Source: Arthrobacter wenxiniae (GTDB lineage Bacteria; Actinomycetota; Actinomycetes; Actinomycetales; Micrococcaceae). Taken from it: 64,000 nucleotides of DNA. A program made the position numbers and the translations under genes. The notes under the pieces are model-generated. The model saw nothing but the letters and a program-made list of their open reading frames with translations. It was not told where the DNA came from and did no database searches. The stretch spans positions 1 through 64,000 of the forward strand of contig NZ_JAAMFM010000007.1 of assembly GCF_013376105.1 (NCBI RefSeq), in the 5' to 3' direction. Shown one piece after another: positions 3,356-56,647 of the stretch (its first letter is position 1; the number at the start of each line of letters is the position of its first letter).

Positions 3356-3413
3356 CGCCGCATGCCGCCGCTTCCTTGGCGTGCCCATTATCCGGCGCCG
3401 TAGGATATGCAGG

Positions 3414-4367: not shown

Positions 4368-4431
4368 TCCGACGTGGCTGAACACTGGCCTGGGGCCGCA
4401 CCAGCCGTTTCCGGCCACTGACTCGTCGACC

Positions 4432-5485: not shown

Positions 5486-5498
5486 CTACGCTGAAACG

Positions 5499-24589: not shown

Positions 24590-24730
24590 CCGCGCCCGCC
24601 CCCCGAGAATGCGCCCGTTCCACCGGGCGCAAAAACGGGGGGCGGGCGCATATTTTGGATGGGACGGCTCCTGAGGCCTTCGGGGGTGCCGGAGGGATGC
24701 GGCGGATGGCGGCTGTGGCAGGATGAAGGC

Positions 24731-25552
24731 ATGAGCTTCGGCTGGGAAATCCGTGCACGGGTGCAGTTTGAGGGCGACGCCCATGTCATGGAGGACGCCT
24801 GCGGCTTCAACGGCCCCAACGCCTGGGTGATCGACGGCGCCAGCCAGCTCCTCGAACCGATCGGGATGCCTGCCGCGTCCGACCCCCAGTGGCTCGCGCA
24901 GGCGCTGTCCATGTTTCTTGCCGGGCCGTGCCTGGACCCGGCGCGCACCGGCGTCCGTGCACGGCTGGCTTCCGCGCTGGCCTGCGTTGATGCCGCCGCC
25001 ACGCCACTGGTCGGCGCCGAGCGCGTGCGCTTTCCCTCCGCGGCGATCTCCGTGGCCCAGCTCAACGCCGACGGCGTGGAGGTCGCCAGCCTGGCCGACT
25101 GCACGGTACTGGTGCGCACGGACGACGGCGCCACCCACCTGGTGCGCGCCGCCGCCGCCGACGCCGCCGTGGACGCGGCGGCGGACGGGGCGATGGATGG
25201 GCCCGTGGATCCCGCGGAACGCCGCCGACTGCTCGTACATGACCGCGAGCAGCGCAACCTGCCCGGAAGGCTTTGGGTGGCGCGGCGCGAACCCGAGGCC
25301 GCAGACCATGCCCGCGTGGTCCAGCTGGGCCGGCCGGAGCTGATGGTGATGGCCACGGACGGGGCCTGGCGCGCGGTGGACCTGGGGCTGGTCAGCGGCC
25401 CGGAAGAGTTCCTGGCACGCACTGGGACCACGCTGGGCGCCCTCGCGCTGATGCACGAATTGCGCTGCAGGCAGGCCGAAATCGGCGAGGTGTCCGACGA
25501 CGCCGCGGTCCTGGCGCTGGCCCCGGCACGGACGCCGCGATCGCTGCCGTGA
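24731..25552 (+). CDS. PP2C-like protein phosphatase
   Basis: A 273-residue protein with PPM/PP2C signatures: MEDACGFNG with its acidic pair, WVIDGASQLL (the DGxx metal site), VASLADCTVLV, MATDGAWRAVD and a C-terminal DDAAVLAL. The family removes phosphate from Ser/Thr using two metal ions. No membrane segment is seen. The ATG at 24731 follows a GATGAAGG ribosome-binding region. Its stop overlaps the GTG start of a phosphotransferase-type kinase gene by four bases, so the pair is coupled; the partner suggests a small regulatory or resistance module of unknown target. Confidence 0.75.
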   Translation: MSFGWEIRARVQFEGDAHVMEDACGFNGPNAWVIDGASQLLEPIGMPAASDPQWLAQALSMFLAGPCLDPARTGVRARLASALACVDAAATPLVGAERVRFPSAAISVAQLNADGVEVASLADCTVLVRTDDGATHLVRAAAADAAVDAAADGAMDGPVDPAERRRLLVHDREQRNLPGRLWVARREPEAADHARVVQLGRPELMVMATDGAWRAVDLGLVSGPEEFLARTGTTLGALALMHELRCRQAEIGEVSDDAAVLALAPARTPRSLP

Positions 25553-26523
25553 CCGCGCGAATTGGCTGGGGCGAACTGCCCGAACCGGTGCGCCATGGCG
25601 TGGAGGCGCTGCTTGGCGAACCCGTGGTGGAGGCCCGCTCGCAGTCCGGCGGATTCTCTCCCGGTTCGGCCGACAGGGTGCGCCTCGCGTCCGGGCGCAG
25701 GGCCTTCGTGAAGGCCGTCAGCGCCGACGTCAACGCCACGTCCGCCGCCCTGCACCGCCGCGAGGCCGCCATTGCCTCGACGCTCCCGGACGGCCTTCCG
25801 GTCCCCGGATTCCTGGGCGCCTACGACGACGGCACCTGGGTGGCGCTGGCCTTCACCGACGTGGACGGCCGGCAGCCGGAGGAGCCGTGGGTGGAGGCCG
25901 AGCTGGTGCAGGTCCTGGACACCTTGGACGCGATGCGGCGCATCAGCCTGACCGGATCCGTTGCCTTGCCCGGCTGCGGGGACGCCCTGCGCGGAGCCTT
26001 CCTCGGCTGGGAGAAACTGGCCCGGCGGCCCATGGTGGGCCTCGATCCCTGGGCCACGGGAAACCTCGACCGGCTGGCGGGCCTGGCACGGCAGGGAGTT
26101 TCCGCCGTCGCGGGCCAATCGCTGGTGCACGGCGACCTGCGCACCGACAACATCCTGCTGACCGGTCCCGACGGCAGGAGCCCGAATGGATCAAGTCCGG
26201 GCGCCGGCGGCGCAGTGCTGGTCGACTGGCCGTGGGCCGCCCTTGGTGCGCCGTGGGTGGACGCCCTGTCCGTGCTGATCAACGTCAAGTCCCTCGACCC
26301 GGGGAGCGACCCGGAAGTGCAGTTGCGGGAGCACCGCGTGTTTTCAGGTGTGCCCGCGCCGGACGTCGACGGCGTCCTGGCCGGCTTTGCCGGATATTTC
26401 CTGGACATGTCCCGCAGGCCGGACTCGCCCGGGATCCCCACGCTGCGCGCCTTCCAGCGGAAGCAGGGCGACGCCCTCATCGGCTGGCTCAAGCTCCGCC
26501 TGCCCCCTCGCCGTACGGGATAA
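25549..26523 (+). CDS. Aminoglycoside-phosphotransferase-family kinase
   Basis: A 324-residue APH/choline-kinase-fold protein. The catalytic Brenner motif SLVHGDLRTDNILL and the metal-binding VLVDWPWAALG are both intact. Such kinases phosphorylate small molecules or, less often, proteins; the substrate is unknown and antibiotic resistance should not be assumed. The start is GTG at 25549, overlapping the PP2C stop. A longer upstream reading in the same frame is antiparallel-free but overlaps the PP2C gene and is unlikely. Confidence 0.75.
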   Translation: MTARIGWGELPEPVRHGVEALLGEPVVEARSQSGGFSPGSADRVRLASGRRAFVKAVSADVNATSAALHRREAAIASTLPDGLPVPGFLGAYDDGTWVALAFTDVDGRQPEEPWVEAELVQVLDTLDAMRRISLTGSVALPGCGDALRGAFLGWEKLARRPMVGLDPWATGNLDRLAGLARQGVSAVAGQSLVHGDLRTDNILLTGPDGRSPNGSSPGAGGAVLVDWPWAALGAPWVDALSVLINVKSLDPGSDPEVQLREHRVFSGVPAPDVDGVLAGFAGYFLDMSRRPDSPGIPTLRAFQRKQGDALIGWLKLRLPPRRTG

Positions 26524-26668: not shown

Positions 26669-29600
26669 ATGCCCACCCCTGAAACAGCCGCGCCAGCCAT
26701 CCGCGCCATCGTCCCGCCCGCACGCCTCCACCCGGAGCTCGACTGCGGCACGGGGGAGTGGGACAAGCTCCTGTACGGCAATCACCGGATTGTGGTGGAG
26801 GTCGCCGCGGCGGGCGGCGCGGGCGAAGGCGGTCCGGACCGTTCAGGCGGAAGGTTCATGGCCTGCACCACCACCCTCCCGTGGCGCCGCCAGGACCCCG
26901 TCCCCGCCGCCGTGGACGTCATCGTGGTTTCCGCCGCCACGGGTTCGCGCGTCCGGAATGTGGTGGCCGGCGAACACACCCCCGCGGCCGGCACCTTCAC
27001 CTTTGAGCCCGTGGACGGCGCCGGGCCCTACTACTTTTACTACCTGCCCTACGCCATGGCGGGCCCCGCGCACTACCCGCAGGCCCATTACCTCCCGGCA
27101 CGTCCGACGGCGGACCCGGCCTGGGTGCGCGACGTCGCCGCGAGCGGGTGGGCGGGCGGGCATGCGCTGCCGGACGGCGGCCACCCGGCAGCGCCCGCCG
27201 TGCGGTACGAGGCCGCCAGCGCGTGGGATTCCTTCGCACCGATGAACTTCGCCGCCACGGACCACGAGCTCGCGGACCTGCACGCACGCCATGCCGGCGC
27301 CGCGTTCCTGCTGTTCGCTGAGGACCGGCAGCACCCCATCTCGATGCGCACGGCCGTGCCGGCGCACTGGGCCGCCGGCGGTCCCGTGGCGGTTGCGTCG
27401 CCGGACGCCGGACCGGCGGGCGGCGGGCAGTCGGGCCGGGGCCCGGCGGCCCGTGCCGGGCAACTTGCGGCGGGGGCGCGGCCCGGCGAGGACTACGTGC
27501 TGCAGCTGGGGCTGTACGCGCTGGAGGACCTGGACGGCATCACCGTGTCCGTGGCCCCGTGCGGCACGGAAAACGGCGCCGCCGGCCCGGACGGTGCGGC
27601 ACGCTGCATCACCACGGCCGGCGTTGACCGGCTGGGCCGGCCGTTCGCCCAAACACTGGACGTGGACAAAGGCTCCGTCCAGGCGCTCTACGTGGTGCTC
27701 CCCGTCCCGAAGGATGCCGCCGGAAGCACTGTGCAGGCGCTCGTCACCGTGTCGGGTCCCGCCGGAACCGCCGCCGTGGAACTCCGCCTGGAGGTCGCGC
27801 CCGGAGCCGACGCAGCGGGCGGGTCAACGGCTGCCGGCCCGGGCGACCCCCAACTGCTGCACCGCCTCGCCTGGCTGGACTCCACCCTGGGCCAGGACGA
27901 CGAACTCGTCCGGCCCTTCACGGCGGTCACCCTGGACGAGGCCACGCGGACGCTGGGCATCCTCGGCCGCACCGTGGTGCTGGCTGCCAACGGCCTGCCG
28001 GAGCAGCTTTCCTCAACCTTCACGGCGGCGGTCACCGGCACGGACGGGCCCGCGAGGGAGCTGTTGGCCCGGCCGCTCAGCCTGGATCCGCTCCCCACCG
28101 CCGGCCCCGTTGCCTGGCACCATTCGCGCTTGAAGTTCACAGCCCACGGGCCGGCCCGGATCGGCTGGAGCTGCACCTGGACCAGTCCCGGCACGCCCCT
28201 CACGGTCGCCGTCGAAGGGCAGCTGGAGGCCGACGGCGCGGCGGACTTTGCCGTGCGGCTGCACCTGCCCCGCGCGGCGGGCACCGCGGTGAAACTGGAC
28301 GATGTGCGCCTTGTCCTGCCCCTCCGCGGGGACGCCGTGCCGTACGCCATGGGCCTGGGCGTGCCCGGCGGGCGGCGCCCCGCGTCGCTCGACTGGACCT
28401 GGGACGTGGCCCACCGCAACCAGGACTCGCTCTGGCTCGGCGACGCCGGCATCGGGGTCCAGCTGGCCCTGCGGGACAGCAACTACGAGCGCCCGCTGAA
28501 CACCAACTTTTACCGCGAGAAGCCGCTGAAGGAGCCCGCCTCGTGGGCCAATCCGGAGAATTCCGGCACCCCGGGCGCGCCGGGAGCCGCGGGAGTCACG
28601 CTCCGTGAGGAGCAGGCGGGGGGAGCGGGCGCCGTCGTGCTTGAGGCGTTCAGCGGGGGGCGGACCATGGCGCCGGGGGACCGGCTCAACTACGGCTTCC
28701 GGCTGCTGCTGACCCCGTTCAAGCCCATCGAGCCGCGGCGGCAGCTGGCCAACCGCTACTTCCACGGGCAGGGCAGCGTGACGGACGTGGCGGCGGCCGG
28801 CGCCACCGTCATCAATGTCCACCACGCCACCGCGCTGGCGCCGTACATCAACGACCCCCTGCTCAGCGCCGGCGGACTGGCGCGGTACACCGCCGAGGCC
28901 CATGCCGCGGGGCTGAAGGTCAAGGTCTATGACACAGTGCGGGAACTGACGGCGCACAGCCCGGAGCTGCTGGCGCTGATGTCGCTGGGCGGTGAGATTT
29001 TCAGCGCCGGGCCCGGCAGGGGGCACATATGGCTGCAGGAACATGCTGGCGACGACTACGTTTCGGCCTGGTATGCGCCCAATGTTGACGATGTCGCGGT
29101 GGTGACGGCGGGGGAGTCGCGCCTGCACAACTGGTACGTCCGAGGGCTGGACGACCTGCTGCGCCAGACCGGGGTGGACGGCATCTACCTGGACGACATC
29201 GCCTTCGACCGGCACGCCATGAAGCGCGTCCGCAAGGTGCTCCAGCGGCGCTGCGCAGACCCGGAGGTCGACATCCACTCGGCCAACCAGTTCAACGAAA
29301 AGGACGGCTTCGCCTCAAGCGCCAACATGTACTTGGAACAGCTGCCGTACACCGACAGGCTGTGGCTCGGGGAGTACTTTGACTACGAAGCCACCGATCC
29401 GGCGTACTGGCTGGTGGAGGTTTCCGGGATCCCGTTCGGGCTGATGGGGGAGATGCTCGAGGGCGGAGGAAACCCGTGGCGGGGCCTCGTTTTCGGCATG
29501 ACCGGGCGGGCGCCGGGCGTGGACAACCGGCCAATGTGGGAGTTTTGGGCCGCACACGGGCTGGAGGCGGCGGAGATGGTGGGGCACTGGGACCCCGGCG

Positions 29601-29860
29601 CGCCGGTGCGGACCAGCAACCCGGACGTGCTGGCGACGTCGTGGATCACTCCTGCCGGGCTGGTGACGGCGCTGGCGAGCTGGGCGGACGGGCCCGCCTC
29701 CGTGACACTGGAGTTTGGACCGGCGCTTGGGGAGCTTTCCGCCGCGCGGGTGCTCGCCGAGGCGATTCCGGGCTTCCAGGACGCGGCGGACTACCGGCCC
29801 GGCGAAGCCATCACGGTGGACCCCGGGCGCGGCATGGTGCTGGTCATCAACCGGCGGTGA
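26669..29860 (+). CDS. DUF6067-type glycoside hydrolase domain protein
   Basis: A 1063-residue protein without a signal peptide, so probably cytoplasmic. The N-terminal 400 or so residues look like beta-rich accessory domains. The C-terminal half resembles the DUF6067 hydrolases: TVRELTAHSPELLALMSLGGE, then LQEHAGDDY, the barrel motif GVDGIYLDDIAFDR (Asp842, Asp843), IHSANQFN, then LWLGEYFDYE (Glu902) and VEVSGIPFGLMGEM. The Asp and Glu residues are candidate catalytic acids. ATG 26669 with GGAG eight bases before it is preferred over ATG 26597. It converges on the formylglycine-generating enzyme gene with a 14-base overlap. The sulfatase-containing neighbourhood suggests a sulfated or acidic oligosaccharide substrate; this is inference. 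Confidence 0.75.
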   Translation: MPTPETAAPAIRAIVPPARLHPELDCGTGEWDKLLYGNHRIVVEVAAAGGAGEGGPDRSGGRFMACTTTLPWRRQDPVPAAVDVIVVSAATGSRVRNVVAGEHTPAAGTFTFEPVDGAGPYYFYYLPYAMAGPAHYPQAHYLPARPTADPAWVRDVAASGWAGGHALPDGGHPAAPAVRYEAASAWDSFAPMNFAATDHELADLHARHAGAAFLLFAEDRQHPISMRTAVPAHWAAGGPVAVASPDAGPAGGGQSGRGPAARAGQLAAGARPGEDYVLQLGLYALEDLDGITVSVAPCGTENGAAGPDGAARCITTAGVDRLGRPFAQTLDVDKGSVQALYVVLPVPKDAAGSTVQALVTVSGPAGTAAVELRLEVAPGADAAGGSTAAGPGDPQLLHRLAWLDSTLGQDDELVRPFTAVTLDEATRTLGILGRTVVLAANGLPEQLSSTFTAAVTGTDGPARELLARPLSLDPLPTAGPVAWHHSRLKFTAHGPARIGWSCTWTSPGTPLTVAVEGQLEADGAADFAVRLHLPRAAGTAVKLDDVRLVLPLRGDAVPYAMGLGVPGGRRPASLDWTWDVAHRNQDSLWLGDAGIGVQLALRDSNYERPLNTNFYREKPLKEPASWANPENSGTPGAPGAAGVTLREEQAGGAGAVVLEAFSGGRTMAPGDRLNYGFRLLLTPFKPIEPRRQLANRYFHGQGSVTDVAAAGATVINVHHATALAPYINDPLLSAGGLARYTAEAHAAGLKVKVYDTVRELTAHSPELLALMSLGGEIFSAGPGRGHIWLQEHAGDDYVSAWYAPNVDDVAVVTAGESRLHNWYVRGLDDLLRQTGVDGIYLDDIAFDRHAMKRVRKVLQRRCADPEVDIHSANQFNEKDGFASSANMYLEQLPYTDRLWLGEYFDYEATDPAYWLVEVSGIPFGLMGEMLEGGGNPWRGLVFGMTGRAPGVDNRPMWEFWAAHGLEAAEMVGHWDPGAPVRTSNPDVLATSWITPAGLVTALASWADGPASVTLEFGPALGELSAARVLAEAIPGFQDAADYRPGEAITVDPGRGMVLVINRR

Positions 29861-30962
29861 CGGTACGAAAACCGCAGTTGCCGCTCGCAGACTCGGGAGA
29901 GTTCGAGCTCCGGGCGGCAAGCCGGTAGCGGTTGCAGTAGGAGTCGTGGCACAGGTACGAGCCGCCGCGCATGACCCGGCCCCGTCCGATGGTGGGGCCG
30001 GGCGGATCCTCCACGGTGCCCCGCGCCAGGCATGACTTGTAGTACTTGGGCAGGAACCAGTCCGCGCACCATTCCCACACGTTGCCGCTTGTCTGGAAAA
30101 GCCCGTAGCCGTTCGGTGCGAAGGTGCGAACGGGCGCAGTGGTGAGGTAGCCGTCACCGCAGGTGTTTTTCGTGGGGAAGGTGCCCTGCCAGATGTTGCA
30201 GTGGTGGATGGTGGCGCCGTCAGCCGTGGTGCCGTGCAGCTCGGCGCCCCAGGGGTACCGGGCCTGCGCCAGGCCGCCGCGGGCCGCGTATTCCCACTGC
30301 GCCTCCGTGGGCAGCGACCGGCCCGCCCAGGCGCAGTACGCCAGGGCGTCCGTGTGCGAAACCTGCACGACGGGATGGTCCGGGACGTCCCGCCAGTCCG
30401 ACTTGGGGCCCGAGGGATGTGCCCAGTCTGCGCCGCGGACGTTCAGCCACCAGGGCGTGCCTGTGGCCGTTCCCAGGATGTCCCGTTTGTCCGCCTGGAC
30501 GGCGAGGTGAAAGACGGCCGAGGTCCCGTAAATCTCCGATTCGGTGCGGTGGCCCGTGGCGTCGACGAAGGCCGCGAACGCGGCGTTGCTCACGGCGGTG
30601 GCATCAATCCGGAAGGCGGAAACCCTGACCTGGTGGACGGGCGTCTCGCCGTCGTCCGGGTAGCCCTCGCCGAAGGGGTCGCCCATGGCAAAGGTGCCGG
30701 CGGGAATGGGGACGTCGTCATGCGCCACCGCAGGGACGGGACCGCCAGCCCCGGTGCCGTCACTGCGGGGGTGGACGGACAGGCCCGCGTGGCCCGCGGC
30801 GTTGCCCGCGCCCGCGTTGCCCGCGTGGACCTGCTGGTCTGTTGCCGGGCGGCCTTCCGGGGTGCAGCAGCTGGACACTTGTTCTCCTTCACAGATGGCG
30901 GCGGGCGGCTGTCCGCCGGCAGGGCGGCTTCCCTTAAGTGTGCCGCAACAGGAGTGGGTCAT
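29847..30962 (-). CDS. Formylglycine-generating enzyme (sulfatase maturase)
   Basis: A 371-residue FGE/SUMF1-type protein that oxidises the cysteine of CxPxR in sulfatases to formylglycine with oxygen and copper. The whole FGE-sulfatase domain is present: IPAGTFAMGDPFGEGYPDDGETPVHQV..., LPTEAQWEYAARGG, YPWG, and SGNVWEWCADW. The copper-binding cysteine pair is intact as LCHDSYC (Cys338 and Cys343). The N-terminus is unusual, with CCGTLKG, EGEQVSSCC clusters of cysteine and a low-complexity region to about residue 80. No signal peptide is seen, matching the cytoplasmic sulfatase of this locus. It is divergent from the ABC transporter operon. Confidence 0.92.
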   Translation of the reverse strand: MTHSCCGTLKGSRPAGGQPPAAICEGEQVSSCCTPEGRPATDQQVHAGNAGAGNAAGHAGLSVHPRSDGTGAGGPVPAVAHDDVPIPAGTFAMGDPFGEGYPDDGETPVHQVRVSAFRIDATAVSNAAFAAFVDATGHRTESEIYGTSAVFHLAVQADKRDILGTATGTPWWLNVRGADWAHPSGPKSDWRDVPDHPVVQVSHTDALAYCAWAGRSLPTEAQWEYAARGGLAQARYPWGAELHGTTADGATIHHCNIWQGTFPTKNTCGDGYLTTAPVRTFAPNGYGLFQTSGNVWEWCADWFLPKYYKSCLARGTVEDPPGPTIGRGRVMRGGSYLCHDSYCNRYRLAARSSNSPESASGNCGFRTVTAG

Positions 30963-31018
30963 GGCACGCCGGCCCGGCGCCAAGGGTCATGACCATGCGT
31001 AATTGTGACTTATTTCGA

Positions 31019-31035
31019 GAACTTGAATCAAGTTC
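31019..31035. promoter_or_regulatory. Perfect palindrome, candidate operator 1
   Basis: GAACTTGA-A-TCAAGTTC is a perfect 8+1+8 palindrome directly upstream of the -35 of the transporter promoter and between the divergent FGE and transporter genes. Its core TTGATTCAAG recurs at 36041-36050 before the oxidoreductase gene. Confidence 0.7.
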
Positions 31036-31064
31036 TTGCACAAGTCCGCTTCATGGTTTATCTT
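31036..31064 (+). promoter_or_regulatory. Promoter of the glycan ABC transporter operon
   Basis: TTGCAC (31036-31041) and TATCTT (31059-31064) are separated by 17 bases. Transcription would begin near 31071, inside the second palindrome and about 85 bases before the first gene. Confidence 0.6.
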
Positions 31065-31081
31065 TGTTAAACGATTAACAA
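31064..31081. promoter_or_regulatory. LacI-type operator, candidate operator 2
   Basis: TTGTTAA-ACGA-TTAACAA is a 7+4+7 palindrome with the central CG typical of LacI-family operators. It covers the predicted transcription start, a position suited to repression. The LacI-family gene at 35012 is the obvious candidate ligand-sensing repressor. Confidence 0.75.
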
Positions 31082-31155
31082 GTGTGGCGGGCATCACATT
31101 CAGCAGCCCCGCCACCACTGCCCGCCACCCACCCAAACCCATACCAGGAGCACGA

Positions 31156-32223
31156 ATGAGCCCGACGACACGTCAGGAAACCCTGGAGACTGCGGCTCCC
31201 GCAGGAGTGTCCGGCGCACCCTCCCCTGGCACGGGCACCAGCCGGCGCCACGGCTGGCGCGCACGGCCAGCCGGACGCTCCGCGGGCAGGAAGGCCCCTG
31301 TCCATGCCGTCCCGTTCAAGGTCCGCTGGCGGCGCGACTGGCAGATGGTGCTCATGATGGTGCCCGGCGTGCTGGTCATGCTCCTGTTCGCCTACATTCC
31401 CATCCTCGGAAACGTGATCGCGTTCCAGGACTACCAGCCGTACCTGAGCATCTTTGAGGCACCGTTTGTTGGGCTGGAGAAGTTTGTGGGGCTCTTTGAC
31501 GATCCCGACTTCCTGGACGCCTTCAGGAACACGATGGTGCTCGCGGTCACACAGCTCGTATTGTTCTTCCCGGTGCCGATCATTCTGGCCTTGGTGGTCG
31601 ACTCGCTCTCGCCGAGGCGCATCCGCAACGTGTTCCAGTCAATCGTGTACCTGCCGCACTTCCTGTCCTGGGTCCTGGTCATCACCTTCTTCCAGGAGTT
31701 CCTCGGCGGAGCCGGATTCATCAACAACACGCTCAAGCTCCTGGGCATGGGCTCCATCCCGTTCATGACGGACCCGTCCACGTTCCCGCTCATGGCCACC
31801 ATCCAGCTCGTCTGGAAGGATGCCGGGTGGGCCATGATCATCTTCCTCGCGGCCCTGTCCACGGTTGACGTCTCCCTCTACGAAGCTGCGGCGGCCGACG
31901 GCGCAGGACGGTGGCGCCGGCTGTGGCATGTCACCCTCCCGGCGCTGCGCCCCATCATCATCCTGCTGCTTATCCTGCGCATCGGCGACATCCTCAGTGT
32001 CGGATTCGAACAATTCATCCTGCAACGGGACAACGTCGGCCCGGGCGCGGCGGAAGTGCTGGACACCTACGTCTATTACTCGGGGGTGATTGGCGGCGAC
32101 TGGAGTGCCGGCGCCGCGGCCGGCCTCGCGAAAGGCATCATCAGTGCACTGCTCATCTGGGGCGCCAACTCGCTGGCCCACAAGTTCGGCGAAGCCGGAC
32201 TCTTTCAGAAGAAGGTCGGCTAG
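31156..32223 (+). CDS. ABC transporter permease, LplB/YteP type
   Basis: A 355-residue CUT1-family sugar-transporter permease. After a hydrophilic N-terminus (about 1-60) there are six hydrophobic helices. The EAA loop that meets the ATPase reads YEAAAADGAGRWRRLWHVTLPAL. LplB/YteP-type permeases bring in oligosaccharides, including uronate-containing ones. AGGAG lies before the ATG at 31156. It is first of permease-permease-binding protein; no ATPase gene is present, so a shared MsmK/UgpC-type ATPase elsewhere probably powers it. Confidence 0.9.
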   Translation: MSPTTRQETLETAAPAGVSGAPSPGTGTSRRHGWRARPAGRSAGRKAPVHAVPFKVRWRRDWQMVLMMVPGVLVMLLFAYIPILGNVIAFQDYQPYLSIFEAPFVGLEKFVGLFDDPDFLDAFRNTMVLAVTQLVLFFPVPIILALVVDSLSPRRIRNVFQSIVYLPHFLSWVLVITFFQEFLGGAGFINNTLKLLGMGSIPFMTDPSTFPLMATIQLVWKDAGWAMIIFLAALSTVDVSLYEAAAADGAGRWRRLWHVTLPALRPIIILLLILRIGDILSVGFEQFILQRDNVGPGAAEVLDTYVYYSGVIGGDWSAGAAAGLAKGIISALLIWGANSLAHKFGEAGLFQKKVG

Positions 32224-32250
32224 GCTCCGCCTGCCACAAGGAGAACTGAC

Positions 32251-33174
32251 ATGACTTCCCTGTTGAACCGTAAAGCCCCCGGGCTCAGCTACTCTCCGAC
32301 CAGGCCCGCCTGGAAGGAAAAGCCCTCGCTGTTGTATTCCAGCCTCAAGGCACTGATCGTGGTGGGCGTCACCGCATGCATCGGGCTGCCGGTCCTGGTG
32401 GTCTTCGCGACGTCGTTCGCGGACAACCAGCAGATCATCCATGCCGGCGGCTACGTCCTGTGGCCCACGCACCCGAACCTGGACGCCTACCGCACCTTGT
32501 TCTCCGGAAACCTCATGATCCGGGCCCTGGGGGTCAGCGCGTTCATCACCGTGATCGGCACGGCAATCGCCCTGTTCGTCACGATCCTGCTCGCCTATGC
32601 CACCAGCCGCCCGGTGCTCTTCGGCCGACCCGTGGTGCTCGCCGTGCTGTTCACCATGCTCTTCAGCGCCGGCATCATCCCCATGTACCTCATGATCAAG
32701 CAGCTGGGCCTCATTGACAGCCTGTGGTCGCTGATCCTTCCCGGTGCGCTGGGAGGCTTCAACTTCGTGGTCATGCGCTCCTTCTTCATGGGCATCCCCG
32801 GGGAGCTGATCGAAAGTGCCCGCATCGACGGGGCCAGCGACTGGAAGATCCTGTGGACCATGGTGCTGCCCCTGTCCAAGGCCGTGACGGCCGTCGTCGG
32901 ACTCTTTTATGCGGTGGGCATCTGGAACGCGTTCTTCAACGCCCTCCTGTACCTCAACGACACGGCGAAGTGGCCCGTCCAGGTGGTGCTTCGCTCCTAC
33001 GTCCTGCAGGGGAAGTCCATGGCGGCGGACCAGCTCGGCGTGGCCGTCCAGGCCCAACCCCAGTCGCTGCAAATGGCTGTCGTGGTCGTGGCCCTGCTCC
33101 CGATCCTGCTCGTCTACCCGTTCCTGCAGCGCCACTTCACCAAGGGCGTCATCACCGGCGCCGTCAAGGGCTAG
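32251..33174 (+). CDS. ABC transporter permease, LplC/YtcP type
   Basis: A 307-residue partner permease with six helices. The EAA-loop equivalent is ELIESARIDGASDWKILWTMVLPLSK. The long periplasmic-type loop after LNDTAKWPVQVVLRSYVLQG is typical of LplC/YtcP. It follows the first permease by 27 bases with AAGGAGAA before the ATG. The pair forms the membrane channel for the binding protein encoded next. Confidence 0.9.
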   Translation: MTSLLNRKAPGLSYSPTRPAWKEKPSLLYSSLKALIVVGVTACIGLPVLVVFATSFADNQQIIHAGGYVLWPTHPNLDAYRTLFSGNLMIRALGVSAFITVIGTAIALFVTILLAYATSRPVLFGRPVVLAVLFTMLFSAGIIPMYLMIKQLGLIDSLWSLILPGALGGFNFVVMRSFFMGIPGELIESARIDGASDWKILWTMVLPLSKAVTAVVGLFYAVGIWNAFFNALLYLNDTAKWPVQVVLRSYVLQGKSMAADQLGVAVQAQPQSLQMAVVVVALLPILLVYPFLQRHFTKGVITGAVKG

Positions 33175-33230
33175 CCCCTCCCGAACCAACCAGCTTCATC
33201 CACCGGAATCACCAACGAAAGGCAAGCACG

Positions 33231-34868
33231 ATGTCAACAGCCACCACCGCCGGCTACAGCCGGCGCGGATTCCTGGGCATGCTCGGCGTGAGCGCCGCGA
33301 CCATCGCCATCGGCACCTCGCTGACGGGTTGTGGACCGTCCGCCCAAGGCGGCAACGCAGCCGCTTCGGCTTCGGTCAAGTTGCCCACCTACAAGGAGTT
33401 CACCGGCATCAAGCCGGACCTGCCCGGCAACGCCGAGGGCCTGCAGCCGGCGTTCCTGTCGATGCCGAAGAACTTCATCAAGACGACCTCCAAGGCGCCG
33501 CTGATACAGGAACTGACCGCCTACACGGAAACATTCGCCACGCCGCCTCCGGGCATGGACTCGAACGCGTTTTGGAAGCGGCTGAACACGGCCCTGGGCG
33601 CCAACCTGAACCTGACCATCGGCACCGACCCGGGCTACCCGGACAAGTTCGCGACGATCCTGGCCAGCGGGGACCTGCCGGACCTGATGTGGCTGCCGCC
33701 GAACCAGGGCATCCCCAACATCGGCCCCATGCTCGAGGCCAAGTTCACCGACATGACCACGTACCTCTCCGGCGATGCGGTGCTGCAGTACCCCAACCTT
33801 GCAGCGCTCAAGCCGGCCTCCTGGAAGACGGCCGTGGTCAACGGCAAGATCTGGGGCGCGCCGATTCCGTCAACCCCCATGGGACAGGTCATGATCGGCA
33901 ACCCGGAGATGTGGAGCAAGGTGGGCGGCTTCAAGTTCACCTCCGTCGACGACTTCATGGCCAAGGGCGCCGAAGTGGTCAAGGCCTTTCCCGGAAGCTT
34001 TGTCCTGGGCAGCGACTACATCAATGAGCTCCACATGTTCGGCGAATGGTTCGGCGTGCCCACCACGTGGCGGCTGAACAAGGACCGCACCCTGACGCAC
34101 ATGTACGAGACCCCCGAGTACAAGGCCATGCTCGAATTCGCCGCCAAGGTGTTCAAGGCCGGCTTCTTCAACCCGGACACCACGCTGTCCAGCTTCAGCG
34201 CACCGTTTGTGGCCAACAAGCTGGCCGCGTACGTATCCGTGGGACCCAAGGGCATCAGCGAGCCCCGAGAAGCCGACCCCACCCGCCACGGCGAGGTGCT
34301 CATCCCCTTCGGCCACGACGGCAGGGCCACGCCGGTTTATGACATGGGCTACGGCACAGTCGGCTTCACCCCGCTGAAAAAGACCACGGATGAAAAGCGG
34401 ATCCGCGAGGTCCTGGACTTCTACAACTGGATGGCCGCCCCCTTTGGCAGCGCCGAATACCTGCAAAAGAACTACGGCACGGAAGGCGCCGACTTCACCT
34501 TCGACCAGGGCGGCAATCCCGTCTTCACCAAGGACGGCAACACCAACGCCCCCGGCCTGGTGAGCGCGCTGAACATCATGTCCAGCCCGGAGAACCCCAT
34601 CTACAGCGCGTCCTTCACCAAGGACACGCAGGCCATCTACGACGCCTCCAAGGAACTGCTGAAGTACGCCAGCAGGAACCCCACCGCCGGGACGTATTCG
34701 GACACCAACTCCAAGCTCGGCGGCAAGCTCACCACTGCCGCCCGCGACACGGCCACCGACATCCTCACGGGCCGGGCGGGCGTGGACACGTGGGACGCTG
34801 CGGTCACCAAGTGGAAGAACGGCGGCGGGGACAAGATCCGCGAGGAATACCAGAAGGCGCTCGCCTAG
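33231..34868 (+). CDS. Extracellular solute-binding lipoprotein (LipO/YtcQ type)
   Basis: A 545-residue binding protein with a twin-arginine signal (YSRRGFLGMLG) and a lipobox (LTGC), so it is exported by Tat and anchored outside the membrane. The remaining part is a large two-lobed type 1 oligosaccharide-binding protein; NIGPMLEAKFTDMTTYL and DMGYGTVGFTPLKKTTDEKRI are family-like. Size and class fit binding of oligosaccharides rather than single sugars. GAAAGG precedes the ATG at 33231. It closes the transporter unit and is followed by a strong hairpin. Confidence 0.9.
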   Translation: MSTATTAGYSRRGFLGMLGVSAATIAIGTSLTGCGPSAQGGNAAASASVKLPTYKEFTGIKPDLPGNAEGLQPAFLSMPKNFIKTTSKAPLIQELTAYTETFATPPPGMDSNAFWKRLNTALGANLNLTIGTDPGYPDKFATILASGDLPDLMWLPPNQGIPNIGPMLEAKFTDMTTYLSGDAVLQYPNLAALKPASWKTAVVNGKIWGAPIPSTPMGQVMIGNPEMWSKVGGFKFTSVDDFMAKGAEVVKAFPGSFVLGSDYINELHMFGEWFGVPTTWRLNKDRTLTHMYETPEYKAMLEFAAKVFKAGFFNPDTTLSSFSAPFVANKLAAYVSVGPKGISEPREADPTRHGEVLIPFGHDGRATPVYDMGYGTVGFTPLKKTTDEKRIREVLDFYNWMAAPFGSAEYLQKNYGTEGADFTFDQGGNPVFTKDGNTNAPGLVSALNIMSSPENPIYSASFTKDTQAIYDASKELLKYASRNPTAGTYSDTNSKLGGKLTTAARDTATDILTGRAGVDTWDAAVTKWKNGGGDKIREEYQKALA

Positions 34869-34883
34869 CCAAGCCCGGATGGC

Positions 34884-34916
34884 GCCGTGGCGGCGCCACG
34901 TTGCCGCCGCCACGGC
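34884..34916 (+). terminator. Hairpin after the transporter operon
   Basis: GCCGTGGCGGCG-(9)-CGCCGCCACGGC is a perfect 12-bp stem starting 16 bases after the binding-protein stop. There is no T-tract, but it probably ends or stabilises the transcript. Confidence 0.6.
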
Positions 34917-35011
34917 CACTGTAGGCTCATGAAACACGCCATTAAGCGGCCTACGGGACAGCGCCGCACGGACCGAATGTCAAGGAACGTCCAAGGGAAG
35001 AGGGTAGCTTC

Positions 35012-36034
35012 GTGAACACGGCAGGCACGGCGCCGCGGCGCGCCACCATCCGCACCGTGGCGCAGGCGGCAGGGGTTTCCACGGCCACGGTTTCCTACGT
35101 CTTGTCCGGCAGGTCCGGGAACACGGAGTCCTCCGGTGTTTCTTCCGAGACGGAACTGCGCGTCCGGGAGGCCGCCCTGGGGCTGGGCTACCGTCCCAAC
35201 CAGGCGGCCCGTGCCATCAGGACAGGCAAGTCGAACCTGATGATGCTGTCCCTGACCATGCTCTCGGACCCCTGGTCCCTTTCCGTCAGCAAGGCGGTGG
35301 GCTCGGCAGTTGCGGATGCGGGGATCACGCCCATGATCCTCGCGGACACGGATTGGCGCACGGCCATCAGGCGGCAGGGAGCGGACGTGGTCTTCATTGA
35401 CGCCGCGGATGGCGAAGGGGACGCCGAACTTTTGGCCGAGCTGGCCCTCAGCAACCGCTTGGTGGTCTTCAGCGAAACCCTGGAACCCAACGGCTTCGAC
35501 GTGGTCCGCTCCATGGCCGGAAAGTCCATGGAGCAGGCCATGGACCACCTGACGGCATCCCATTCGACCGTCGGGTGCCTCACGTCCGCCCCCAGCCGCA
35601 AGGCGCCACGCCAGGGCAGGTACGGCGCCTATGTGCGGGGCCTTGAACGGGCGGGGCTTGAGCTTCGTGAGGACCATGTGGCGACGTTCGACGGCGACGA
35701 ATTCAGTGCCTATGAGGCTGCCGTGACGCTGCTGGATCAGCCTGACCCGCCTACGGCCATCTTCGCCACGTCCGACTTCGTGGCGATTGCCGCCATCCAT
35801 GCCGCCCAGCGGCTGCGGCTGGACGTCCCCGGCGACGTGGCCGTCGTCGGCGTCGGCAACACCCTGCAGGGCGAGGCCATGGCGCCGTCGCTGACCAGTG
35901 TGGGGCCGGCCGGATTCTTTGACGGCCTGGCCCGGTTCCTGGTTGACAGGGCCCATGACCCTGCCGCGGCGGTGCAGGTCCTGGAGTTCCCTTGGCAGCT
36001 GTTCGTGCGCGATTCCGCACCTGCCGTGTCCTGA
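35012..36034 (+). CDS. LacI-family transcriptional regulator
   Basis: A 340-residue LacI/GalR regulator. The N-terminal helix-turn-helix reads TIRTVAQAAGVSTATVSYVLSG and the hinge helix GYRPNQAARAIRTGK; a sugar-binding core follows, ending with the DVPGDVAVVGVGNT segment. Between the recognition helix and hinge there is an extra NTESSG stretch compared with usual LacI proteins. The start is a GTG at 35012 after AAGAGGG. It sits between the transporter and the oxidoreductase-sulfatase genes and is the likely reader of the palindromes at 31019-31081 and 36037-36053; inducer is presumably a degradation product. Confidence 0.9.
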   Translation: MNTAGTAPRRATIRTVAQAAGVSTATVSYVLSGRSGNTESSGVSSETELRVREAALGLGYRPNQAARAIRTGKSNLMMLSLTMLSDPWSLSVSKAVGSAVADAGITPMILADTDWRTAIRRQGADVVFIDAADGEGDAELLAELALSNRLVVFSETLEPNGFDVVRSMAGKSMEQAMDHLTASHSTVGCLTSAPSRKAPRQGRYGAYVRGLERAGLELREDHVATFDGDEFSAYEAAVTLLDQPDPPTAIFATSDFVAIAAIHAAQRLRLDVPGDVAVVGVGNTLQGEAMAPSLTSVGPAGFFDGLARFLVDRAHDPAAAVQVLEFPWQLFVRDSAPAVS

Positions 36035-36036
36035 CT

Positions 36037-36053
36037 TTTTTTGATTCAAGAAC
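36037..36053. promoter_or_regulatory. Half-conserved operator before the oxidoreductase gene
   Basis: Contains TTGATTCAAG (36041-36050), identical to the core of the inverted palindrome at 31019-31035; 11 of 17 positions agree overall, including the final C. It lies 18 bases before the GTG start at 36071. Confidence 0.5.
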
Positions 36054-36070
36054 TAGAGAGAAGAAGCGTT

Positions 36071-37285
36071 GTGACAGATTTGGTTGAAGCCGTGCCCGGG
36101 CCTGCCCGGAATGCCCGTGACATGCGGGTGGGGATTGTGGGCTTCGGCCTGAGGTCCTCCCTGTGGCGCCAGGTGCATCGGCCCGGGGAGGGCTCGGAAG
36201 TGGCCATGGTGTGCGACCTTTCCGAGCGTGGGCGCGCTGATGCCGCCGAACGAATTCCGACGGCGGAGGTCACCGGGGACCTGGACATGCTGTTGGGTGC
36301 GGGGCTGGACGCCGTGTTGGTCCTGACCCCGGACAACCGGCATGCCGAGGTGGCGGTTCGGACGCTGAAGGCCGGCCTTCCCACGTTTTGCGAAAAGCCC
36401 CTGGACGTGACCCTGGAAGCGGCCGACGCCGTCCTGGCTGCCGCCTACGAGTCCGGAACCCCGCTGTACGTGGGGCACAACATGCGCCACATGCCTGTGG
36501 TGGTGCAGATGCGCGATATCATCCAGGCCGGGACCATCGGGGAGGTCAAGGCCGTCTGGTGCCGCCACTTCGTGGGCAACGGCGGCGACTACTACTTCAA
36601 GGACTGGCACGCGGAGCGGGCCAACACCACCTCGCTGCTGCTGCAGAAGGGCGCCCATGACATTGACGTGATCCACTGGCTCGCAGGCGGCTACTCGCGG
36701 AGGGTCTCCGCCATTGGCGACCTGGCCGTGTACGGCGGCGTGACCAGCCGGCGGGACAACTCGGACCGGAGGATGGGCGACTGGTTCTCGCTGGACAACT
36801 GGCCGCCGGAGGAGCAGACGGACCTCAACCCGGTGATCGACGTCGAGGACATCTCCATGATGCAGATGGTGCTGGACAACGGGGCCCTGGCCTCCTACCA
36901 GCAATGCCACTTCACGCCGGACTACTGGCGCAACTACACGGTCATTGGCACGAAGGGCCGGATCGAGAACTTTGGCGACGGCCCCGGCGATTTCATCCAC
37001 GTCTGGACCACGCGCACACAGGACGGCTTCGTGGCGCCGGATGTGAAAGTGGAGATCCGGGACGGGGAGGGGGGGCACGGCGGTGCCGATCCGTTGCTGA
37101 TTGCCGAGTTCCTGCGCTTCGCCCGGGTGGGCGGCACCACGCAGACGTCCCCGGTCGCGGCCCGTGAAGCGGTGGCCGCCGGGGTGCTCGCCGCCCAGTC
37201 GCTGCGCTCGGGCGGCGGGGCACTGGAGGTTCCGGCGCTGCCCGCGGGGATGGTGGAGTACTTCAACGCCGGCCAACAACGCTAG
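36071..37285 (+). CDS. Gfo/Idh/MocA-family oxidoreductase
   Basis: A 404-residue NAD(P)-dependent sugar or inositol oxidoreductase. The Rossmann motif is VGIVGFGLRSSLW and the catalytic-lysine motif FCEKPLDV is intact; QKGAHDIDVIHWLAGG in the C-terminal domain supplies the usual Asp/His pair. It likely oxidises, epimerises or cleaves a sugar from the imported glycan. Some relatives act as NAD-dependent glycosidases, so that is possible too. The GTG at 36071 is chosen because AGAGAGAAGAAG lies in front. The sulfatase gene follows after 192 bases. Confidence 0.85.
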   Translation: MTDLVEAVPGPARNARDMRVGIVGFGLRSSLWRQVHRPGEGSEVAMVCDLSERGRADAAERIPTAEVTGDLDMLLGAGLDAVLVLTPDNRHAEVAVRTLKAGLPTFCEKPLDVTLEAADAVLAAAYESGTPLYVGHNMRHMPVVVQMRDIIQAGTIGEVKAVWCRHFVGNGGDYYFKDWHAERANTTSLLLQKGAHDIDVIHWLAGGYSRRVSAIGDLAVYGGVTSRRDNSDRRMGDWFSLDNWPPEEQTDLNPVIDVEDISMMQMVLDNGALASYQQCHFTPDYWRNYTVIGTKGRIENFGDGPGDFIHVWTTRTQDGFVAPDVKVEIRDGEGGHGGADPLLIAEFLRFARVGGTTQTSPVAAREAVAAGVLAAQSLRSGGGALEVPALPAGMVEYFNAGQQR

Positions 37286-37477
37286 CGGCCGGGCCCGGTG
37301 GTTGGGCCCGCCGGAATCCGGTGCGGACCCTATCGCCCTGTCCGTCACCGGGCCGGGCGGCATGGTTCTGAGCGTCCGGCCCAACGCCCCGGGCAACGGG
37401 GCCGGGTGCCGATCCATGCGCCACAGGCACTGCACCTGCCAGCCCTGCGAACCCTATGAAGGAGATGGTGTCCAGCG

Positions 37478-38965
37478 ATGGGCAAGCCAAATGTAATCTT
37501 GATCTGCGTGGATGAATGGCGGGGGGACTGCCTGTCGGCGGACGGCCACCCTTTCGTGGAAACGCCCCATCTCGACGAGCTCGCGCGCAGCGGCGTCCGG
37601 TTTTCCAAGGGATACTCCGCAACGCCCACCTGCGTTCCGGCCCGTGTCGCCCTGTTCACCGGCCAGTCGCAGGAAAAACACGGCCGGGTGGGCTACAACG
37701 ACGGCGTCCCCTTTGACGCGGCCCATCCGGTAACCATCCAGGGCGAATTCAGGAAGGCCGGGTACCACACCCAGGCCATCGGGAAGATGCATGTTTACCC
37801 GGAACGGGGGCGCATTGGTTTTGACGACGTCATCCTGCATGACGGCTTCCTGCACCACTCCCGCAGGCACTTCAAGCAGAACTTCGCCTTTTTCGACGAC
37901 TATGTGCCGTGGTTGCGCCGCCAGCCCGGCAGCACGCCCGAGGCGGAGTACTTCGACCACGGGGTGAACTGCAACTCCGTGGTGGCCCGGCCCTGGGACA
38001 AGGCCGAGCACCTGCACCCAAGCCACTGGATCGGCACCCAGGCCATCGACTGGATGTACCGGCGCGACCCCTCCAAGCCGTTCTTCCTGTACCTGTCGTG
38101 GCACCGGCCGCACCCGCCCTACGACCCGCCGCAGTGGGCCATTGACCAGTACCTGGACATTGACCCCTACAAGCCGGTGGCAGGGAACTGGGAGCAGGAC
38201 TGGGACGAGTTCCGCAACGACGGCGACTACCAGGCGGCCTTCGGAGATCTGCCTGACCGCACCGTGCACCGCGCCCGCGCCGGCTACTACGGGCTGATGG
38301 CCCAGATCGATTTGCAGATCAACCGCATCAAGGAATCCCTGGCCGACTTTGGCCTGGCCGAGGACACCATCATTGCCTTCACCTCGGACCACGGGGAAAT
38401 GATGGGCGACCACCACATGTTCCGCAAGGGGCTGCCCTATGAAGGCTCGGCGCGCGTTCCCTTCATCGTTGCTGACGCGCCGTCCGCCAAGGGATCCGCG
38501 CGCGGCGCCGTCATGGACCATGTTGTCGAGCTGCGGGACCTCATGCCCACCCTGCTGGACCTGGCCGGCGTGGACATCCCGGATTCGGTGGACGGCAGGT
38601 CCCTGGCGCCGCACGTCAGGGGCGAGCCGGGGGCAGGGCCGGTCCGGGACCACCTGCACGGCGAACACGTGTATTTTGGCCAGAACATCCACTGGCTGAC
38701 AGATGGCAGGATCAAGTATGTGTGGGGCTCGGCCAAGGGCGTGGAGCAGCTCTTTGACCTGGAAGCTGACCCGGATGAATGCCGCAACCTGTCCCGCGAG
38801 GACGCATCCGCGGAACTGCTGCAGCTCTGGCGGTCCAGAATGGTGGATGCCCTGGACGGCCGCGAAGAGGGATTTGTGCAGGACGGGGCCCTGGTGCCGG
38901 GCCGGCCCGTGGTGCCCATCCTGGCGCACACCCGGGAGTTGATAGCGGCCGCTGCCGGGCGGTAA
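37478..38965 (+). CDS. Type I (formylglycine) sulfatase
   Basis: A 495-residue alkaline-phosphatase-superfamily sulfatase. The maturation motif is CVPAR (Cys52) in TPTCVPARVALFTGQ, the proper CxPxR substrate for the FGE of this locus. Metal ligands are visible as ICVDEWRGD at the start and TSDHGEMMGDHHMF (Asp304, His305). The GKMH motif around 103 fits substrate and sulfate binding. There is no signal peptide, so it desulfates an imported sugar in the cytoplasm. GAAGGAGATGG precedes the ATG. Sulfatase subfamily and sugar position cannot be assigned by eye. Confidence 0.93.
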   Translation: MGKPNVILICVDEWRGDCLSADGHPFVETPHLDELARSGVRFSKGYSATPTCVPARVALFTGQSQEKHGRVGYNDGVPFDAAHPVTIQGEFRKAGYHTQAIGKMHVYPERGRIGFDDVILHDGFLHHSRRHFKQNFAFFDDYVPWLRRQPGSTPEAEYFDHGVNCNSVVARPWDKAEHLHPSHWIGTQAIDWMYRRDPSKPFFLYLSWHRPHPPYDPPQWAIDQYLDIDPYKPVAGNWEQDWDEFRNDGDYQAAFGDLPDRTVHRARAGYYGLMAQIDLQINRIKESLADFGLAEDTIIAFTSDHGEMMGDHHMFRKGLPYEGSARVPFIVADAPSAKGSARGAVMDHVVELRDLMPTLLDLAGVDIPDSVDGRSLAPHVRGEPGAGPVRDHLHGEHVYFGQNIHWLTDGRIKYVWGSAKGVEQLFDLEADPDECRNLSREDASAELLQLWRSRMVDALDGREEGFVQDGALVPGRPVVPILAHTRELIAAAAGR

Positions 38966-38989
38966 GGGAACAGACTTCGACGGGATGGG

Positions 38990-39370
38990 CGCTCCTCCCG
39001 GCGACGACCGTGCGCGCCTGGAGCTACAGCTTTGACGCCGTCAGCCGGGTAGGGCATGGGCGGGTTCCGCTGGGGACGGGCGTGCCCCGGTCCGGGTCCT
39101 GCAGCTCCAAGGCCACGCGGTGGAAGTTCCGTGCGGAGCGGACTTCCCAGCTGCTCCATCCTGCCACCGCTCAGATCGATGATGAAGTCCAGGGCCTCAA
39201 ACAGGGTCAGGGCGGCAACCCGCCACCAGGAGGCAGGCCAGGGCGTTGGCCGTAATCCGGGGAGCCCAGTTGTTCCGCGGATCTTCCGGGGGCCCGAACC
39301 AGTAGCGGGTCCTGCCGATGAACGGCGTCAGGACGCGGCAGCTCCCGGCCCCGGGAAGCTCTTTTTGGGC
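38990..39370 (-). pseudogene. Degraded fragment, possibly heparinase II/III-like
   Basis: On the minus strand, about 39255-39370 reads FIGRTRYWFGPPEDPRNNW followed by APRITANALACLLVA, and after a frame change about 39125-39215 reads ALTLFEALDFIIDLSGGRM. The NNW...N...L pattern is reminiscent of heparinase II/III-type lyases, which carry a conserved HNW/NNW region, but the match is weak. No intact frame, start or stop spans it. It is certainly not a working gene; identity is tentative. Confidence 0.35.
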
Positions 39371-52788: not shown

Positions 52789-53706
52789 ATGAGCGAGAAC
52801 GCCGTTACGGACCTGGGCCCCTTCATGGCAGCCGAGCTGACCAGCCAGCCCGAGGTGTGGGCCCGGGCCATCGCCCAGGCCCGCGAGGAAAGCCTGCTGC
52901 CAGCCGACGGCCAGCGTGTGGCCGTCATTGGCTGCGGCACCTCCTGGTTCATGGCCCAGAGCTATGCCGCCGCCCGCGAATCCGCCGGCAAGGGCGTCAC
53001 GGACGCCTTCGCCGCCTCCGAGGCCTTCCTGGGCGGGGACCGCGGCTACGACGCCGTCATCGCCATCACCCGCTCCGGCACCACCACCGAGGTGCTGGAG
53101 GTTCTGGCCGAACTCAAGGGCACCGTGCGCACCGTTGCCCTGGTGGGGGACACCTCCTCGCCGATCATGGCGCTGGCGGATGCCGTCGTCGCACTTCCCT
53201 ATGCGGATGAGAAGTCCGTGGTGCAGACCCGCTTCGCCACCACGGCCCTGGCCTACCTGCTCACCAGCGTGGGCGTGGACCTGTCCGCCGCGGTCGAGGA
53301 CGCCAAGGCCGCGGTCACGGCGCCCGTGGAGCAGGAGCTCATCGACGCCGAACAGTTCACCTTCCTGGGCACCGGCTGGACCGTGGGCCTGGCGCACGAG
53401 GCCGGCCTGAAAATGCGCGAGGCCGTCCAGGGCTGGACCGAGTCGTACCCCGCCAAGGAATACCGCCACGGCCCCATCTCGATCGCCGCGCCCAACCGTG
53501 TGACCTGGATGTTCGGCCGGCAGCCCGAGGGCCTGGACGCCGACATGGAAAAGACCGGCGCGCTGTACATCAACAATGACGTGCACCCGCTCGCCGAACT
53601 GGCCCGCGTCCACCGCGTCACCCTGGAGCGTGCCCGCGCCCGCGGCATGAACCCGGACCTGCCACGCAACCTGACCCGCTCCGTCATCCTGGACGAGACC
53701 GCCTAG
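52789..53706 (+). CDS. SIS-domain sugar isomerase (AgaS-like)
   Basis: A 305-residue protein with two SIS domains. The first holds VAVIGCGTSWFMAQSYAAARESAG and ITRSGTTTEVLEVL; the second contains FLGTGWTVGLAHEAGLKMREA and the SYPAKEYRHGP segment typical of aldose/ketose-phosphate isomerases and deaminases such as AgaS and GlmS. In this setting it probably converts galactosamine-6-phosphate to tagatose-6-phosphate with loss of ammonia. AAGGAG lies 11 bases before the ATG at 52789. It leads the operon isomerase-kinase-kinase-aldolase-regulator. Confidence 0.8.
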   Translation: MSENAVTDLGPFMAAELTSQPEVWARAIAQAREESLLPADGQRVAVIGCGTSWFMAQSYAAARESAGKGVTDAFAASEAFLGGDRGYDAVIAITRSGTTTEVLEVLAELKGTVRTVALVGDTSSPIMALADAVVALPYADEKSVVQTRFATTALAYLLTSVGVDLSAAVEDAKAAVTAPVEQELIDAEQFTFLGTGWTVGLAHEAGLKMREAVQGWTESYPAKEYRHGPISIAAPNRVTWMFGRQPEGLDADMEKTGALYINNDVHPLAELARVHRVTLERARARGMNPDLPRNLTRSVILDETA

Positions 53707-53739
53707 GGCCGGCCGGCCACCGCGAAAGCAAGCAACGTG

Positions 53740-55736: not shown

Positions 55737-55751
55737 ATAAGGATTCATCCC

Positions 55752-56603: not shown

Positions 56604-56647
56604 GTGCCCTGCCCCTCAACGCATCTTTCTTCTCAGCGGGAGTTTCC

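Follow-up and report, generated by a model that had tools for sequence, protein, structure and literature searches.

A putative Arthrobacter locus for the import and cytoplasmic dismantling of mucin-type O-glycan pieces, with desulfation as an optional step

The ats1 and ats2 clusters of Bifidobacterium breve are described as encoding a glycosulfatase, an anSME, a transporter, and a regulator for host sulfated glycans (PMC9239261), and the BT4240-50 locus of Bacteroides thetaiotaomicron is described as using GH2 and GH109 enzymes to degrade core-1 and Tn and as including an N-acetylgalactosamine (GalNAc) kinase with a phosphotransferase domain (PMC11992087). Here we set beside them a locus at positions 26669–39370 of a 64,000-nt stretch of contig NZ_JAAMFM010000007.1 from Arthrobacter wenxiniae (GCF_013376105.1), an actinobacterium of soil type; the whole stretch is referred to as the window. 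The locus encodes a protein of family PF19543, a formylglycine-generating enzyme (FGE), an LplB/LplC/LipO transporter, a LacI-family regulator, a Gfo/Idh/MocA oxidoreductase, and a sulfatase. On balance, we favor a role for this region in the uptake of mucin-type O-glycans with a GalNAc core and their dismantling in the cytoplasm, with desulfation optional, because the conserved core of the locus exists both with and without a nearby sulfatase. The sugars imported are probably small, sometimes sulfated pieces cut from mucin-like proteins and taken apart inside the cell.

What stays constant across genomes is LplB-LplC-LipO-LacI-Gfo/Idh together with one LacI operator, while PF19543, the sulfatase, and the FGE vary. 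The original prediction for this DNA, a compact sulfated-glycan locus with its own sulfatase maturase, listed real parts but named the wrong center: the PF19543 protein, the FGE, two binding-protein-dependent permeases, the LacI regulator, the Gfo/Idh/MocA protein, and a CVPAR sulfatase are all borne out by Pfam, NCBIfam, and the sequence itself. The features are as follows.

26669..29860, + strand: putative hydrolase of family PF19543 (DUF6067, "GH123_N"), 1063 aa, cytoplasmic-looking; Pfam 1113 bits
29847..30983, - strand: FGE with Cys345/Cys350; profile, PDB, and sequence matches
31019..31035, no strand: palindrome GAACTTGAATCAAGTTC; one match at ≤3 mismatches, with a match also in 3/100 shuffles
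31064..31081, no strand: predicted LacI operator TTGTTAAACGATTAACAA; similar site before LplB in related loci
31156..32223, + strand: LplB-type permease; PF00528, with ATG 31156 read from the DNA
32251..33174, + strand: LplC-type permease; PF00528
33231..34868, + strand: LipO-type solute-binding lipoprotein; RR leader and TGC lipobox
35012..36034, + strand: LacI-family regulator; PF00356, PF13377
36041..37285, + strand: Gfo/Idh/MocA oxidoreductase; Pfam, alternative start 36122
37478..38965, + strand: type I sulfatase with CVPAR, cytoplasmic-looking; nearest solved relative 9koq

The idea of import followed by cytoplasmic processing is supported. The hydrolase, the FGE, and the sulfatase have no signal-peptide-like N terminus, judged by hydropathy and by eye rather than by SignalP, and the transporter-LacI-Gfo core is conserved with its operator. 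We compared 395 genomes of the same family, including 23 of the window's genus (g1) and those of a second, Paenarthrobacter-type genus (g10), and read the surroundings of PF19543 in 21 loci and those of the sulfatase or the Gfo gene in 60. An orthologue of the Gfo gene occurs in 79 of the 395 (E ≤ 1e-120), and LplB-LplC-LipO-LacI-Gfo lies downstream of gatB in many loci, in genera with and without PF19543. The LacI-type operator is the single such site in the whole genome at ≤3 mismatches, and an operator-like site precedes LplB in 26 of 27 loci examined, the exception being L213. The "shared operator-like sequences" of the original prediction come down to this operator and one other palindrome, both before LplB; operators common to several genes are ruled out, as there is one site only. 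The palindrome, located between the FGE and LplB, may be bound by a second regulator.

Different enzymes accompany the core, within 20 kb, in other genomes. These include GH35 (G098, with G270 and G056 assigned by clustering), GH123 (G054, G394, and, by coordinates, G390), and DUF2264 (with GH29 in G255, and in G202). G221 has GH123, GH20, and GH95, as well as a DUF2264 gene assigned by clustering. In four loci of the genus, the core is accompanied by a beta-helix protein whose GLAA-B-like matches are all under Pfam cut-offs. As for the transporter itself, LipO has no Pfam match at E ≤ 0.01 and no PDB match at E ≤ 0.1, a weak Tat-signal match being its single NCBIfam result, and no ATPase gene is seen adjoining it. 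The Gfo/Idh protein is evenly conserved among related loci. GH109 is a family of the Gfo/Idh fold; no GH109 C-terminal domain was detected by Pfam on the Gfo protein, which matches the general GFO_IDH_MocA models and, under the cut-off, a Gal80p_C-like one.

The clue to substrate, absent from the original prediction, is a GH101 gene with adjacent Aga-like genes farther along the window.

47819..52381, - strand: secreted GH101 endo-alpha-N-acetylgalactosaminidase; PF12905, GTG start 52381 or 52426, signal peptide by eye
52789..53706, + strand: SIS-domain sugar-phosphate isomerase/deaminase, AgaS-like; PF01380, under NCBIfam cut-offs
53740..54762, + strand: ROK-family sugar kinase; PF00480
54759..55736, + strand: PfkB hexose kinase of the 1-PFK/tagatose-6-P kinase type; TIGR03168
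55752..56603, + strand: class II ketose-bisphosphate aldolase of the GatY/KbaY type; TIGR00167
56648..57439, + strand: DeoR-family repressor, best match AgaR; NF040755 149 bits, cut-off 260

GH101 enzymes cut galactose (Gal)-GalNAc pieces from O-glycoproteins. The match here is complete (PF12905, 418 bits, profile 1–272 of 272) and close to PDB 2zxq (E 5e-145), and the divergent SIS-ROK-PfkB-aldolase-DeoR set (52789–57439) resembles aga/gat genes, its hexose kinase and ketose-bisphosphate aldolase scoring above subfamily cut-offs. Within the family, 43 of 395 genomes carry GH101; 39 of these also have the Gfo orthologue, and in 26 of the 39 the two lie within 30 kb. GH101 is present in 19 of 22 genomes with PF19543 (a partial match in G378) versus 24 of 373 without it. 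When the comparison is confined to the 20 g10 genomes that have the Gfo gene, it is found in 10 of 12 with PF19543 versus 1 of 8 without (p = 0.0045, by a plain Fisher test uncorrected for kinship). A literature search on GH101 with Arthrobacter returned nothing on this locus, by title and the start of the abstract.

The PF19543 protein, whose family we take to be the same as DUF6067, matches its profile at full length (positions 2–969 of 969, against a cut-off of 22 bits) and is the sole match in the genome. The family is called GH123_N in Pfam. Like the GH123 beta-N-acetylgalactosaminidases, the protein contains a beta-sandwich (profile match to 5l7v, E 3e-7, at profile positions 199–319). 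Unlike them, it has no match at E ≤ 0.01 to the GH123 catalytic domain PF13320 (DUF4091), a domain that a comparable search detects at 338 bits in a GH123 protein of G221, and the consecutive catalytic Asp-Glu pair of GH123 is missing from the invariant columns of 44 PF19543 sequences. An annotation tool is reported to list PF19543 as GH123 (PMC13355591). Because the database name points to GH123, beta-GalNAcases may be assumed in genomes that do not encode them. By description, the PF19543 protein is similar to the deep-sea protein DSSM_1, in which the resemblance to GH123 is reported to be confined to one beta-sandwich; DSSM_1 also has a distinct (beta/alpha)8 barrel, likened to GH66, has no DUF4091, and was set aside (PMC11087588). 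Literature searches by the names DUF6067 and PF19543, mostly outside subscription papers, found no activity study.

The structure model of the PF19543 protein (pLDDT 82.2, pTM 0.83) resembles GH36 and GH101 galactosaminidases, its best Foldseek matches being a Flavonifractor galactosaminidase (E 3e-17) and the GH101 enzyme EngBF (7e-13). Asp842 and Glu902 are invariant in 44 of 44 sequences and fall at or after model strands 838–842 and 897–900 (strand numbering is our own, read from the model). Based on the fold and this invariance, Asp842 may be the nucleophile and Glu902 the acid/base of a retaining glycosidase.

PF19543 occurs in 22 of the 395 family genomes, 10 of 23 in g1 and 12 in g10. 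In g10 it is located outside the core locus, in another neighborhood: in L034–L052, far from the LplBC core, it is followed by DUF5107, and the adjoining genes encode two proteins that are presumably ABC exporters, along with a thioesterase and a CutC-like protein; McrBC is frequently present as well. Strict mutual replacement of GH123 and PF19543 is ruled out, as G221 and G239 have both. The family has at least 585 relatives, spread over groups that include Bacteroidota, Acidobacteria, Gemmatimonadetes, and Actinobacteria; the titled-record loci considered below are the best 80 of these from one scan, and not a random sample. In all 26 loci titled Flavobacterium (within L073–L131), the gene order is SusC, SusD, arylsulfotransferase-fold protein, cytochrome c, PF19543, with labels taken from one Pfam-scanned member per cluster. 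In 25 of them DUF5107 and an M1 peptidase follow (L108 ends earlier), and GH109-type, GLAA-B, or DUF3472 genes are often next. These loci thereby place a redox protein and a protein of sulfotransferase-like fold next to a putative glycosidase. One record titled Sporosarcina beigongshangi (L053) has an Arthrobacter-type locus and is possibly a misnamed assembly.

Taken together, we tentatively propose, while thinking it could well be otherwise, that PF19543 is a so far unrecognized glycosidase family of the retaining type, whose catalytic half is GH36/GH101-like and uses Asp842 and Glu902, and whose substrates are O-glycan pieces containing GalNAc or Gal; in Micrococcaceae it would be cytoplasmic, behind an LplBC importer, and in other phyla it would belong to SusCD-type loci with DUF5107, at least once fused to a sulfatase. 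Within this same proposal, and with the same reserve, the Pfam name GH123_N would be wrong.

In the pathway we envision, the secreted GH101 would release Gal-GalNAc pieces from O-glycoproteins, and LipO with LplB/LplC would import them, powered by a presumed shared ATPase because none is seen beside the transporter. In the cytoplasm, the PF19543 enzyme, probably a retaining glycosidase, would cleave the glycosidic bond, and the sulfatase, activated by the single FGE, would strip sulfate where the sugar is sulfated. The Gfo/Idh protein may then oxidize or otherwise prepare the product, and GalNAc-derived sugar phosphates would pass through the AgaS, ROK, PfkB, and aldolase enzymes, as their families suggest. 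LacI would repress the transporter operon via its one operator, given the conservation of that site. The scheme builds on observed gene content, the one FGE found, the single operator, and the synteny counts; its substrate, catalytic residues, and sequence of steps are inferred.

Several observations weigh against this reading. GH101 lies ~10 kb from the core, separated from it by tdh, kbl, and HutI genes that look unrelated; the proteins named AgaS and AgaR by resemblance are under equivalog cut-offs; and G221, whose enzyme set exceeds that of every other locus read, is without GH101. In g1 the GH101-PF19543 correlation is weak (9/10 versus 7/13, p = 0.089), and the lack of a kinship correction affects this Fisher test as well as that for g10. 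One genome of the genus (G231) has PF19543 350 kb from the core. The fold matches have a large root-mean-square deviation (7.7 Å over 523 residues), and matches to other glycosidase folds and to mutarotase folds are equally good. Finally, a search of 41 genomes gave no GH112 phosphorylase, with a control that was silent as well.

The FGE (PF03781, 254 bits in the genome search; PDB 6muj, E 6e-104) appears to be of the aerobic type by its PF03781 fold and Cys pair, which is the Cys338/Cys343 pair of the original prediction, numbered there from an ATG seven codons in and here from the first start. It is not, as supposed, a maturase of the locus's own: one FGE was found in the genome versus six PF00884 matches, and a PP2C-like gene shares its stretch in 14 of 17 FGE-matching loci, with or without PF19543 (exceptions L166, L167, and L195). 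An FGE belonging to the LplBC locus alone is thus ruled out by synteny and copy number, and it would therefore also serve four further cytoplasmic-looking sulfatases. These are encoded on contig C12 (~239–259 kb; L008, L009) with two PL8 lyases carrying Tat-type leaders, DUF2264, Gfo/Idh, a sugar isomerase-like protein, a GntR/LacI-type regulator, a binding protein, and permeases. No FGE match was found in that locus, which is likely of chondroitin or hyaluronan type. The PP2C-like gene and its neighbor in the window are as follows.

24659..25552, + strand: open reading frame, which we take from sequence resemblance to be PP2C-like; recurs near the FGE in related loci
25552..26523, + strand: APH-fold phosphotransferase (PF01636), Pfam 29.6 bits

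The APH-fold protein, a possible GalNAc kinase, has no PDB match at E ≤ 1. Elsewhere in the window, no RNA families reach the gathering score, and a scan for promoters and terminators gave matches no commoner than in shuffled sequence. ARAGORN calls a tRNA-Ser at 21990–22082 (- strand), antisense inside the gatA frame, which is probably a false positive.

The sulfatase is of type I, with Cys at residue 52 of the protein in CVPAR (PF00884, 159 bits). It is under the cut-off of the Mn-dependent arylsulfatase model NF052527 (430 of 850 bits). Its best solved relative is 9koq (E 4e-111), which we take to be EfAS, the Mn-dependent arylsulfatase of Enterococcus faecium. Like EfAS, it has the reported metal-site residues, here D12, C52, D304, and H305 by our own reading of the alignment, while Gln21 of EfAS is Glu13 here (PMC12421950). 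It is matched in 33 of the 395 genomes (E ≤ 1e-60), including 22 of the 23 in the genus; a few of the latter are incomplete or interrupted (split in G182, one in-frame stop each in G170 and G202, partial in G024).

One alternative is that this enzyme is a general scavenger of aryl- or organosulfates and a chance neighbor of the sugar locus, which we consider unlikely. It passes the NCBI arylsulfatase equivalog (685 bits, cut-off 481), and EfAS, its presumed nearest solved relative, is described as acting on aryl sulfates, phosphates, and phosphonates (PMC12421950). The grouping with arylsulfatases that the original prediction had listed as counting against it is therefore found in part, by this model match and by a nearest solved relative that appears to be an arylsulfatase. 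In addition, the sulfatase is near the Gfo gene in 8 of the 33 genomes (the window's own, G211, G221, G247, G270, G098, G056, and G004, in which Gfo is more distant), leaving 25 without a sulfatase seen near Gfo, although draft contigs may hide some; 21 of the 33 neighborhoods were read and the other 12 judged by contig coordinates, for which draft assemblies can mislead. Most sulfatases thus lie elsewhere than at the core, which argues against a tight partnership; in the non-core loci read, the neighbors are often, presumably, glnA and glnE. Against chance, however, the sulfatase appears tied to Gfo/ABC sugar loci more than once in its phylogeny, in separate branches. The tree has 34 rows: two sulfatases from C12 and 32 of the window's kind, G182 left out. 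Proximity to Gfo requires 3 changes on this tree versus 7.3 in shuffles (0/500 as low), or 2 versus 6.5 with G004 unlabeled (0/500 as low), though close relatives inflate the test. Once, in G004, it also lies beside an Aga-like set: there (L216:1536–14268), AgaR/AgaS/ROK/PfkB/aldolase homologues have a sulfatase on either side, and a Gfo gene and an ABC permease lie close by. The G004 set is a compact candidate for the use of sulfated GalNAc.

It seems improbable to us that sulfatase, FGE, and PF19543 hydrolase form one functional unit of a dedicated sulfated-glycan locus, as originally proposed. The three genes do lie together in the window, and sulfatase, FGE, and core are still together without PF19543 in G056, with a whole FGE, and in G270 and G098, with a remnant or broken one. 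Moreover, in an uncultured bacterium (L132, ~1400–5870), a single open frame joins a seemingly complete, secreted-looking sulfatase (CAPSR) to a full PF19543 domain downstream of it. Outside the family, nothing else supports a link between sulfatase and PF19543 as strongly as this natural fusion, which lies on a single metagenome contig. However, the FGE is the sole one found in the genome, and a sulfatase near PF19543 is rare. A match within ~10 kb occurs in 2 of the best 80 titled loci, as a fragment in L096 and as the fusion in L132, not counting L067 (A. silviterrae), where it is just outside the stretch. Within the family it occurs in 1 of 21 loci besides the window, while in G221 one is ~15 kb off, outside the stretch. 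In five PF19543 core loci (G170, G202, G024, G263, G128) the sulfatase is elsewhere. The different distributions of the sulfatase (22/23 genus genomes) and DUF6067 (10/23) weaken the dedicated locus further.

That the region serves pieces of chondroitin or dermatan sulfate is very improbable. GalNAc sulfate is common to both substrate types, and the genome encodes the PL8 lyases and four cytoplasmic-looking sulfatases described above, but the C12 cluster has its own solute-binding protein, permeases, and regulator, and no polysaccharide lyase or GH88 was matched among the scanned proteins of the LplBC locus. Chondroitin sulfate was set aside as the substrate in favor of this better-fitting cluster elsewhere in the genome.

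With uptake and cytoplasmic dismantling of O-glycan pieces as the favored reading, the locus links PF19543 to a cytoplasmic, FGE-dependent route of desulfation for imported sugars and to a testable substrate class. Its intracellular arrangement is not as little described as originally suggested, having a precedent in the ats clusters of B. breve; the genome itself also has a second, PL8/sulfatase locus built on the same logic. As far as the ats clusters are described, they share with the window locus an actinobacterial sulfatase with a maturase, a transporter, and a regulator; they differ in that their maturase is the anaerobic anSME, while the locus here has the sole FGE found in its genome, PF19543, a Gfo/Idh protein, and GH101 nearby (PMC9239261). 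BT4240-50, by its published description, likewise pairs GH109 and another glycosidase with a phosphotransferase-domain kinase; however, it relies on SusCD and an O-glycopeptidase, whereas the window region has LplBC/LipO, a secreted GH101, and a Gfo protein without the GH109 C-terminal match (PMC11992087).

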